A DNA stretch of 64,000 nucleotides. Origin: Candidatus Baltobacteraceae bacterium. GTDB taxonomy: Bacteria; Vulcanimicrobiota; Vulcanimicrobiia; Vulcanimicrobiales; Vulcanimicrobiaceae. Where the stretch lies: assembly GCA_035502855.1 (NCBI GenBank), contig DATJTX010000018.1:124001-188000 (forward strand), read 5' to 3'. Position 1 is the stretch's first letter, and every line of letters starts with the position of its first letter. Positions 23,327 to 60,774 of the stretch are shown in pieces. The notes under the pieces are model-generated. The model made no database searches and was not told where the DNA came from. It worked only from the letters and a program-made list of their open reading frames with translations. The translations under genes and the position numbers were made by a program.

Positions 23327-23379
23327 GGGAACCGCCCACCGCTCGCCTTCGGCTCGCACCTGCGGGTGACGGAACAACG

Positions 23380-23424
23380 GTCATCCTGAGGTGCACGAGC
23401 GCGCAGCGCGAGTGCCTCGAAGGG
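23380..23424. repeat. Dispersed palindromic element, copy A
   Basis: GTCATCCTGAGGTGC at the left end and GCCTCGAAGG at the right end form imperfect inverted arms around a GC-rich centre (ACGAGCGCGCAGCGCGAGT). The same two arms, in opposite orientation, occur inside ileS at 55525-55564. It lies in the 134-bp gap between convergent genes, downstream of the hot-dog gene. Confidence 0.7.
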
Positions 23425-38997: not shown

Positions 38998-39038
38998 TTG
39001 TCATCCCGAGCCCTTCGACTCGCTACGCTCACCGTGAC
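38998..39038. repeat. Possible palindromic repeat, gtcatcccgag...ctcaccgtgac type
   Basis: The word gtcatcccgagcccttcga followed by ctcgctacgctcaccgtgac has arms that resemble the palindromic element at 23380 and 55525 (gtcatcctgag, ccttcgagg). It lies in the sigma-factor upstream gap (38880-39059), which otherwise shows no gene. Similarity is only partial, so grouping with the other two copies is tentative. Confidence 0.4.
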
Positions 39039-53495: not shown

Positions 53496-56276
53496 CTAGA
53501 GCGCGCGGACGACGGCGGCGCAGTCGGCGCAGATCGACGGATGTTCGGGATCGGTGCCGAGCTCGCGAAACTTCCAGCAGCGGCGGCATTTCTCGCCGTA
53601 GGCGGGATGGATCGTGAGACCGGTTTCCTCGCCGGGTGATTCACGCAGGTCCAATTGCGAGACGACCAACGCTTCGCGCAGGTTGTCTCCGAGCGCGCTC
53701 AGCTCGCCGAAGCGCGCGGCGGGGACCCGCAGCTCGACCCGCGCTTCGAAATCGCGGGGGCTCTCCGATGCAGCGACGCGGGCGCGCAGTTCGCGCAGCA
53801 TCTCCCACAGTTCCCGTTCGCGCGGCGGCGCGGTCGCCGGTGCGCCGAATGCCGAATCGAAGACGCTGCGTTCGTCGCCGCGCAGCCGCTCCGGGACCTC
53901 TTGCCAGGCTTCCTCGGCGGTGAACGAGAGAATCGGCGCAACCGCCGTCAGCAACCGTTTGAGCGCGTAGAGCAGCGCGGATTGCGCGCTGCGCCGGCGA
54001 CGGCTGTTCTCGCCCAGCGAGTAGAGCGGGTCTTTGAGGGCGTCGAAATAGAAACTCGACATCGCACTTTCGAACTCGACCACACGTAGATATGCGTCGT
54101 GGATGGCAAAGGTCTCGTAGAGCGCCTTTACCTCGGCGACGAAGGTGTCGGTGATCGCACAGGCCAGGCGATCGAGCGGTTCCATCTCCTCGCGCGCAAC
54201 GACGTCGTGGGCACCCAGATCGTCGAGGTTCGAGAGCATGAAGCGAATGCGGTTGCGGATGTTGCGATAGACTCGGCCGACCTGTTCGATCACGTTCGGA
54301 CCGAAGCGCACGTCGTCGACGAATTCCACCGACGCGGACCATAGACGCAGCACGTCGGCGCCCCAGCGGTTCATCGCCTCGACCGCGTCAAGGCCGGTGC
54401 CGCGCGACTTGGACATCGCCCGCCCCTGCTCGTCGTTGACCCAGCCATTCTTCACCACGCGTTTGTACGGTGCATCGCCTTTGATCGCGACGCCGGTCAG
54501 CAGCGAACTGCGGAACCAGCCGCGGAACTGATCGCCGCCTTCGAGATACATCTCACACGGCCAGGGGATATCATCGTGACCGAGCACCGCTAAATGCGTC
54601 ACGCCCGACTCAAACCAAATATCGACGATGTTCATCTCCTTCTCGAACGTGGTTCCGCGACAATTCGGGCAGTGAAACCCCGCCGGCAGATACATCTCGA
54701 CCGGATCGACCCACCACGAACCCGCGCCCGCTTCAGCGAAGCGTTTCGCCACGTTCCGTGCGACGTGCGGATCGAGCATCGATTCGCCGCATGCGGCGCA
54801 GAGCAGGGCCGGGATCGGGGTGCCCCAGATTCGCTGGCGCGAAAGGCACCATTCGGGATGCTTTTCGATCATCTGACGCTGACGCGCGCGGCCCCACTCG
54901 GGAACGTAATCGACACGATCGACCGCTTCGATTGCGCGCGCGCGCAGGCGATTCTGATCCATCGCGATGAACCACTGCGCGGTCGCTCGAAAGATGACCG
55001 GGTTGTGACAGCGCCAGCAGTGCGGATAGGAATGTTCGTACTCCTCCACGCGCCAGAGCGCGCCGCTCGCGCGCAGGTCTTCGACGATGACCTTGTTGGC
55101 CTTGAAGATGAACAGGCCCGCGTATGGACCAGCCTCTTGCGTGAAATGTCCCGACGCATCGACCGGGTTGAGGATCGGTAGATCGTACTTGACCCCGGTA
55201 TCGAAGTCGTCGGCACCGTGTCCGGGCGCCGTGTGCACCGCGCCCGTTCCGGTTTCGAGATCGACGTAATCGGCGAGCACGATGACCGAATCGCGATCCA
55301 TGAAGGGATGGCGCACGCGCAGATCGTCGAGACGATCGCCGGCGACGCTCGCGAGCAATTCCGCGCGCGCAAAGGCTTCCCCGAGCGCCTTCGGCGCAAG
55401 CGCGCTGGCGAGAATCAGCAGCTCGTCGTCGACGCGATAGAGTCCGTAGGTGGCGTCGGCCCGCAGCGCGATCGCGACGTTGGCCGGCAACGTCCACGGC
55501 GTGGTCGTCCAGATCAGGACCGACGTCCTTCGAGGCTCGCCTTCGGCGAGCACCTCAGGATGACGTGAAGCGGCAAACACCGACAGTATAGCCTCACGCT
55601 GTTCGTCGCCGGCCGAAAAGCGGACGTAGATCGAAGGCGAGATCTTCGGCTCATATTCGATTTCCGCCTCGGCCAGCGCCGTTTCGTCGTGAACGCACCA
55701 CAACGTCGAGCGCAACCCCTTGTAGAGCTGCTTGCGCTCGGCCAAGTCGGCGAGCGCGTTGACGATCGTCGCCTCGAACGACGGATCGATCGTCCGATAC
55801 GGCCGGTCGAAGTGACCGAAGACGCCCATCCGCTGACGCGCTTCACTTTGACGCCCAAGCCAAAAGAGCGCGCGCTCCTTGCAGCGTTCGCGCAGTTCGA
55901 GCGGGTCGATCGCGTGAAAGTCCTTGATGCCCAGGAATTTGAGCGTCTCGAGTTCGATCGGCAACCCGTGCATGTCCCAACCGGGAATGAAATCGGCCCA
56001 CTTCCCGTCGAGCAGCGCAATCTTCACGAACATGTCCTTGAGCACCATGTTCAGGAAGTGCCCCATGTGCAACTCGCCGTTGGCGTAAGGCGGACCGTCG
56101 TGGAGAATCCACGGCCCGTTCTTGCGATTGGCTTCGAGCCTGCGCTCGTAGACGCGTTGCGCATTCCACCACGCGAGCCGATCGGGTTCGCGTTTGGGTA
56201 GATCCGCTTTCATCGGGAAGGCGGTCTTGGGTAAACGTAAGGTATCGCGATAATCGCGTTCGACGGTCTCACTCAT
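53496..56276 (-). CDS. ileS: Isoleucyl-tRNA synthetase with in-frame repeat insertion
   Basis: Charges tRNA-Ile. ATG 56276 gives 926 residues; the longer open frame upstream is inside csaB. The HIGH motif is PPYANGELHMGHF, the signature LIWTTTPWTLPANVAIAL marks the editing domain, and the second signature is GRAMSKSRGTG instead of GRKMSKS. A zinc finger ends the protein (CRRCWKFRELG, CADCA). Just before LIWTTTPW there is a stretch RHPEVLAEGEPRRTS (about residues 238-251) that is coded exactly by a dispersed palindromic repeat (55525-55564). The csaB stop overlaps its start (ATGA). Confidence 0.95.
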   Translation of the reverse strand: MSETVERDYRDTLRLPKTAFPMKADLPKREPDRLAWWNAQRVYERRLEANRKNGPWILHDGPPYANGELHMGHFLNMVLKDMFVKIALLDGKWADFIPGWDMHGLPIELETLKFLGIKDFHAIDPLELRERCKERALFWLGRQSEARQRMGVFGHFDRPYRTIDPSFEATIVNALADLAERKQLYKGLRSTLWCVHDETALAEAEIEYEPKISPSIYVRFSAGDEQREAILSVFAASRHPEVLAEGEPRRTSVLIWTTTPWTLPANVAIALRADATYGLYRVDDELLILASALAPKALGEAFARAELLASVAGDRLDDLRVRHPFMDRDSVIVLADYVDLETGTGAVHTAPGHGADDFDTGVKYDLPILNPVDASGHFTQEAGPYAGLFIFKANKVIVEDLRASGALWRVEEYEHSYPHCWRCHNPVIFRATAQWFIAMDQNRLRARAIEAVDRVDYVPEWGRARQRQMIEKHPEWCLSRQRIWGTPIPALLCAACGESMLDPHVARNVAKRFAEAGAGSWWVDPVEMYLPAGFHCPNCRGTTFEKEMNIVDIWFESGVTHLAVLGHDDIPWPCEMYLEGGDQFRGWFRSSLLTGVAIKGDAPYKRVVKNGWVNDEQGRAMSKSRGTGLDAVEAMNRWGADVLRLWSASVEFVDDVRFGPNVIEQVGRVYRNIRNRIRFMLSNLDDLGAHDVVAREEMEPLDRLACAITDTFVAEVKALYETFAIHDAYLRVVEFESAMSSFYFDALKDPLYSLGENSRRRRSAQSALLYALKRLLTAVAPILSFTAEEAWQEVPERLRGDERSVFDSAFGAPATAPPRERELWEMLRELRARVAASESPRDFEARVELRVPAARFGELSALGDNLREALVVSQLDLRESPGEETGLTIHPAYGEKCRRCWKFRELGTDPEHPSICADCAAVVRAL
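55525..55564. repeat. Dispersed palindromic element, copy B, inside ileS
   Basis: The 40-bp palindrome starts gtccttcgaggctcgcc and ends cacctcaggatgac. Its arms are the reverse complement of copy A at 23380-23424. Here it lies within the coding sequence and is read in frame. The centre (ctcgccttcggcgag) is a near-perfect hairpin. Confidence 0.85.
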
Positions 56277-60701: not shown

Positions 60702-60774
60702 TGGGCGATGCAGGGTTCGAACCTGCGACCTTTGCCTTGTAAGGGCACTGCTCTCCCAGCTGAGCTAATCGCCC
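60702..60774 (-). tRNA. tRNA-Val (anticodon UAC)
   Basis: The minus strand folds as a full cloverleaf of 73 nt: acceptor GGGCGAT/ATCGCCC, D-arm GCTC..GAGC, anticodon loop CTTACAA (TAC at 34-36), T-arm GCAGG-TTCGAAC-CCTGC and discriminator A. The outermost anticodon-stem pair is a G-A mismatch. CCA is not encoded. It lies directly beside the tandem repeat. Confidence 0.95.

Follow-up and report, generated by a model that had tools for sequence, protein, structure and literature searches.

In-frame palindromic repeats in ileS and other genes of a Candidatus Baltobacteraceae bacterium, with recurrent occupation of one IleS loop

The ileS gene and its palindromic insert

The window analysed here, a stretch of 64,000 nucleotides from the genome of a Candidatus Baltobacteraceae bacterium, contains the gene of isoleucyl-tRNA synthetase, the only IleS-grade match of the source genome (n=1), whose reading frame harbours a short palindrome related to a second copy located between genes. 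The features concerned are the following:

53496..56276, minus strand: ileS, isoleucyl-tRNA synthetase of 926 aa, the host gene (translation; Pfam tRNA-synt_1, Anticodon_1 and zf-FPG_IleRS; PDB matches to IleRS)
55525..55564, minus strand: REP-like hairpin, in frame within ileS, encoding residues 238-251 (RHPEVLAEGEPRRT) (sequence; two-arm family membership; empty loop in the sister species; single-hairpin fold)
55553..55564, minus strand: 5' arm GTCATCCTGAGG of the ileS copy (sequence match; 31 copies genome-wide)
55527..55535, minus strand: 3' arm CCTCGAAGG of the ileS copy (sequence match)
23380..23423, plus strand: intergenic copy of the family with the same arms and another inner stem, between two convergent reading frames (sequence; two-arm match)
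23341..23372, minus strand: decayed partner copy, inverted and adjoining the intergenic copy in a head-to-head dimer (read from the sequence)

On the minus strand the insert DNA reads CGTCATCCTGAGGTGCTCGCCGAAGGCGAGCCTCGAAGGACG, with RHPEVLAEGEPRRT as its in-frame reading, and residues R238 to T251 of IleS are encoded by the insert and directly followed by SV and LIWTTTPWT. The original prediction of a palindrome at 55525-55564, in frame in ileS and contributing about 14 residues ahead of LIWTTTPWT, is confirmed in these respects. Judging from the intact frame, the insert would be translated. The copy at about 23380, which had been paired with that of ileS, has both arms in common with it, but the inner stem differs (TGCACGAGCGCGCAGCGCGAGTGC versus TGCTCGCCGAAGGCGAGC). 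As a separate observation, the sole Rfam match above the gathering score in the window is a tRNA gene at 60702-60774 on the minus strand.

The nearest IleS relatives belong for the most part to Candidatus Eremiobacterota, with a tree placement in Vulcanimicrobiota. In the alignment with related IleS, the nearest relative is devoid of the insert residues and reads FSAEASERASILIW; at the insertion site, the sister species G001, whose IleS is 86% identical, reads TILAAFSAEASERASILIW and exhibits no repeat. The net gain of the loop in ileS of the source genome amounts to approximately +7 to +9 aa versus 14 repeat-encoded residues; in several loops, this one included, the repeat encodes more residues than were gained, which means that native residues have also been lost.

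The insertion site corresponds to the loop that links helix 224-235 to the LIWTTTPWT strand. In the AlphaFold2 model of IleS, built from a 54-sequence alignment and reaching a mean pLDDT of 91.5, the confidence falls to 75 for residues 231-240 and to 63 for residues 241-250, between helix 224-235 and strand 250-257. On the basis of this low-confidence link, the insert is predicted to form a flexible connection bordering the editing domain. The solved structures closest to the model are bacterial IleRS, and the helix-strand connection is shorter in the enzyme from S. aureus (1ffy).

A family of hairpins in the source genome and beyond

Within the window alone, the matches to both ileS arms stay below significance. 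The whole-genome counts settle that the ileS palindrome is not due to chance: the 3.33-Mb genome contains 31 instances of the 5' arm GTCATCCTGAGG (reversed control 0), and the two-arm pattern GTCAYCCYGAG-N4..34-TCGARGG gives 88 matches (reversed-pattern control 0), far above the two occurrences from which the original prediction started. As the nearest relative is devoid of the insert residues, neither of the two refuting conditions stated with that prediction applies. A chance palindrome is ruled out by these counts and controls, and the wider reading, in which the stretch is either a chance palindrome or native coding sequence, can hardly hold: part of an arm does resemble native IleS codons occurring elsewhere (HPEW), but the control for both arms jointly is 0, the palindrome is missing in the sister species, and other subtypes of the family are found at the same place in relatives.

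The element has a 5' tag, mostly C or T followed by GTCA, and continues with a short outer stem of 4 bp, either TCCT/AGGA or a version that covaries, then with a GA/GA internal loop and an inner part that varies from copy to copy. By manual count, the base preceding GTCATCCTGAGG is C or T in 25 of the 31 copies, the remaining 6 displaying GGTC, and the 3' end of the copies is mostly GGACG. Two arm types predominate, GTCAYCCYGAGC with 93 matches and GTCAYCCYGAGG with 52 (one match in each control). The ileS copy folds into one hairpin with a GA/GA internal loop; compared with shuffled sequences, its RNA hairpin has a modest gain in stability (z -1.9), and the intergenic copy none (z 0.3).

The arms covary. 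At an inner arm position, the source genome contains 76 T-A, 15 C-G, 4 C-A and 0 T-G combinations (P = 3.5e-14) and, when four stem bases were left free (S each) in three related genomes, complementary pairs (CC/GG, GG/CC, CG/CG) occurred in 102 of 105 manually counted copies; these counts include non-independent copies of shared ancestry, but each of the three genomes contains the two arm types side by side. A crude test of the inner stem, in which pairing is perfect within 8 of 29 copies versus 1.4% between copies, is suggestive and less firm than the covariation of the arms. This covariation suggests that copying of the element may depend on the hairpin.

The paired inverted arrangement of window positions 23341-23423 is seen again at four other loci (L006, L009, L011 and L012). 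A composite unit, made of two opposed palindromes around the spacer GACGGAGCAAC, is nearly identical at several places and recalls a BIME-like dimer, and L012 forms a tandem array. At window positions 39000-39038, GTCATCCCGAGC followed by CCTTCGACTCGCTACGCTCACCGTGAC resembles a composite or truncated copy of the family.

Depending on the relative, a genome contains between 0 and more than 300 copies. G011 (287 matches) and G027 (86) show an expansion of the GAGG arm type, which is nearly absent from the other relatives, where GAGC is dominant; the expansion of subfamilies thus depends on the lineage. Plasmids of Rhizobium and Methylobacterium contain similar sequences (86-88% over about 40 bases), in a span devoid of annotated feature, and the one plasmid match inspected lies between opposite-strand genes with converging ends; these matches indicate that the family reaches beyond the phylum.

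With respect to the mover, the search for a REP-associated transposase suggested together with the original prediction gave a negative answer, no RAYT-type (Y1_Tnp) gene being found in the source genome (G000); Y1_Tnp is present in 1 of the 28 family genomes searched (G021). A Y1/RAYT transposase, the sole class covered by this search, was rejected as the mover because none was found in the source genome.

Occupation of the IleS loop and of other host genes

Peptides encoded by palindromes of this family occur in the same IleS loop in 17 of 69 sequences of the phylum, with subtypes, orientations and frames that vary from case to case. The 17 occupied rows, 14 clear and 3 decayed, were assigned by hand, and the tree was built without the loop columns. 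On this tree of 69 rows the state of the loop requires 12 changes, at least 8 of them on well-supported branches, each of which may be a gain or a loss. The inserts include VILSVAPEGREVEG (G010), LRQAQHDT...VTLSLSKG (G033), VIPSVGSEATGVEG (G002), VILSLSKD (G026), LSSRAKSRD (G006), CHPERSAEG (L078), CHPERAQRLSAERRRGTD (L070), STSLRLARDD (L075) and PSTSLAGARSAQGD (L053), and the ileS insert DNA of G010 is identical to many other copies in that genome. The loop measures 24-29 aa in genus-to-order relatives devoid of an insert, against 27-53 aa where one is present. Some neighbouring insert-bearing rows (e.g., L024/L053 and L042/L078) contain unlike palindromes, which points to further separate gains.

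A few relatives display particular arrangements. The IleS genes of L036, L057 and L058 have inherited in common a double palindrome in the loop. In the first hairpin of L058, GG..CC has replaced CC..GG, and the second hairpin possesses a different, fully paired inner stem; repeats of the GG/CC type abound in each of these three genomes. The change in L058 may result either from gene conversion by another copy or from a compensatory change inside the coding region. An IleS fragment at a contig end (L082) shows an extreme expansion of the loop, with tandem palindrome peptides before LIWTTTPWT (RQAQHDTDVL three times and SLSKG four times). A second site in the editing region of IleS accommodates the repeat ALRPAQGDTE at about residue 318 of L084, and possibly a decayed one at about residue 300 of its neighbour L132.

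The loop is occupied in 7 of the 35 family genomes that possess it, versus 0.06 expected at the genome-average repeat density (P = 8.5e-13) and 0.64 expected if all copies sat in an assumed 10% of intergenic DNA (P = 5e-6), P values that are too optimistic owing to the choice of the loop because of the finding and to the non-independence of related genomes; 6 of the 7 occupied genomes differ from the genome that prompted the finding. Loop-occupied genomes also have more repeats (P = 0.002). A strict two-arm scan of the IleS sequences (about 200 kb) located 14 copies in the loop and 3 elsewhere, 2 of these 3 near gene ends, and the same scan of 19 ValRS-like paralogues (51 kb) detected no copies. 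A general permissiveness of the whole IleS or of the synthetase fold is ruled out by the absence of copies in these paralogues and their near absence from the rest of IleS. With an occupation about 10 times higher than the generous intergenic density, tolerance alone may fall short as a full account; the excess does not establish a preference of insertion, because a better retention inside the gene could yield the same excess.

In this respect, two other explanations of the recurrence have to be considered. The insertion could be functional, the hairpin in the ileS mRNA or DNA (e.g., by pausing at the domain boundary or by tuning expression) or the added loop itself being selected and the site hence repeatedly filled. 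The occupancy of 7 against an intergenic expectation of 0.64, the 8 or more separate changes at a single loop and the inserts of the L036/L057/L058 clade, which stay paired despite differing arms, speak for it; it is nonetheless unlikely, considering that peptides, frames and orientations vary so that no peptide is conserved, that the loop is empty in most relatives, including the REP-rich G011, G035 and G036, and that the other host genes have no tie to translation. Alternatively, the inserting machinery could prefer this particular DNA site, the hotspot then owing nothing to tolerance. Such a choice of target would fit the strong recurrence in one loop and the lack of copies in ValRS-like paralogues, but it is very improbable: the native loop sequence is poorly conserved among relatives, the position of the insert varies inside the loop, and the loops of atpG and dxr are also recurrent without any evident common sequence.

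The survey of hosts covered 87 family copies of the source genome, 22 of which are surrounded by coding-like frames. Apart from ileS, in-frame copies occur in about 15 recognised genes, including alaS, atpG, recF, dnaX, dxr, thrC and gcvPB. The hosts identified by Pfam/NCBIfam comprise a 2-oxoacid dehydrogenase E2 acyltransferase, a HIRAN/DEAD helicase (2 copies), a thiolase, GcvPB, a squalene/phytoene synthase, the ATP synthase gamma subunit, an RND adaptor, RecF, a glycine C-acetyltransferase/BioF-type enzyme, Dxr, threonine synthase, AlaS, a heptosyltransferase (2 copies) and DnaX; a few other frames (L002, L007, L009, L018 and L264) are putative hosts. In relatives, palindrome-like peptides, recognised as such by peptide, occur in the atpG loop (PSTSAQSAYAQGD in G010 and SPERSGVLSERSESKG in G027) and in the dxr loop (CHPERSERASEVEG in G010), both loops having been struck separately in these relatives. 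AlaS and GcvPB were rejected as recurrent sites, the insert being found there in the source genome only.

The evidence base consists mostly of metagenome assemblies. The window itself comes from a 39-contig assembly and an artefact of assembly or binning might be suspected, but its probability is negligible: none of the occupied genes has its frame interrupted by the insert, and inserts are also present in genomes that were assembled separately in different studies, among them G006 (4 contigs) and G026 (8 contigs).

Origin of the inserts and comparison with known systems

The inserts are most probably selfish REP-like hairpins, dispersed by some machinery and tolerated in permissive surface loops. 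The idea of a REP-like element entering an essential gene in frame, already put forward in the original prediction, is supported by the empty loops of relatives, by the genome-wide family and by the 15 or so additional in-frame hosts. The element would be a non-autonomous and probably selfish DNA, whose new copies arise by a mechanism that apparently does not need an encoded Y1/RAYT transposase. Copies falling into genes would survive only in variable surface loops, with a net insertion divisible by three and an open frame, which the CCTGAG type offers in 4 of its 6 frames. Once inserted, the element would be read as a loop extension of about 8-30 residues, later trimmed or diversified, and the IleS loop that joins the helix to the LIWTTTPWT strand at the edge of the editing domain would have been colonised repeatedly in this way. 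In this reading the repeat would be mobile and neutral, and the filter would be selection rather than a preference of the inserter.

A bolder version, which we find doubtful though worth entertaining, is that the IleS loop serves both as a preferred landing site and as a maintenance site, in which the palindrome is kept paired (as DNA or mRNA) by copy exchange or by selection, and offers essential enzymes across the family a renewable source of loop sequence.

So far, Rickettsia has provided the best-known in-frame palindromic repeats, the intragenic REPs from other sources being scattered. In the present case, a single genome offers about 15 recognisable host genes, a number of which are usually essential, and, provided that losses are rare, the same loop of an essential enzyme has been filled at least 8-12 separate times in one family. 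What appears to be new is the phylum, as well as the count of core-gene hosts within a single genome and the strongly recurrent occupation of the ileS loop. Literature searches by repeat sequence, and for palindromic repeats in Eremiobacterota, yielded no description; an earlier ileS case is possible in the intragenic-REP supplement of PMC3733652, which these searches did not cover. The system represents a natural replicate experiment on the conversion of selfish DNA into protein sequence, and on the question of which process, insertion or selection, determines the location; with copy numbers ranging so widely among genomes, the phylum is also suited to seeking the mover of CGTC-type repeats by comparing gene content with copy number.

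The likeness to the Rickettsia palindromic elements, proposed from the outset, was judged apt (PMC3733652). Both are short palindromes, many of them in frame within genes of functional proteins, with a CGTC-like tag and several usable frames, and the in-frame repeat in genes that stay full length, characteristic of the Rickettsia elements, is found here in ileS and about 15 recognised genes. They differ by the sequence, the Eremiobacterota host and the recurrent hits in one essential-gene loop across a bacterial family; the likeness is one of insertion behaviour, with no claim to RPE membership. The same source assigns RPE-4 and RPE-6 of R. conorii to the CGTC REPs, a group described as lacking a dedicated transposase (PMC3733652), and the negative Y1_Tnp search in the source genome is in line with this description.

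With the CGTC-tagged REP superfamily, as described in PMC3733652, the element shares several traits: a CGTC/TGTC tag in the majority of copies, a location between convergent genes, dimers arranged head to head, units inside genes and the lack of an associated transposase. An unpaired tag (CGTC, TGTC or CCTC) indeed occurs at one end, and no transposase association was found as regards Y1_Tnp. In contrast to the plain stem of 8-9 bp and the loop of 4-5 bases reported there, it has a GA/GA internal loop and a variable inner stem; neither a stem of that length starting with A-T and T-A nor a tail near CCA, another feature of these REPs, is present. The element is left outside all four CGTC families because its stem, loop and tail mismatch their description (PMC3733652). 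The GTAG REPs associated with RAYT transposases (REPtrons) resemble it in size, in the hairpin form with an unpaired 5' tetranucleotide and in the occurrence of dimers; they differ in their tag, which is GTCA instead of GTAG here, and in the linked RAYT gene, no Y1_Tnp having been found in the source genome.

Genes of tRNA synthetases already figure among the hosts of intragenic REPs in PMC3733652, which also reports REPs at about the same site in recB of Xanthomonas campestris and X. oryzae. The recB case is similar to that of ileS in that different REPs occupy the same place of an orthologous gene, but it concerns two species only (PMC3733652), whereas the ileS loop has undergone at least 8-12 changes over a whole family.
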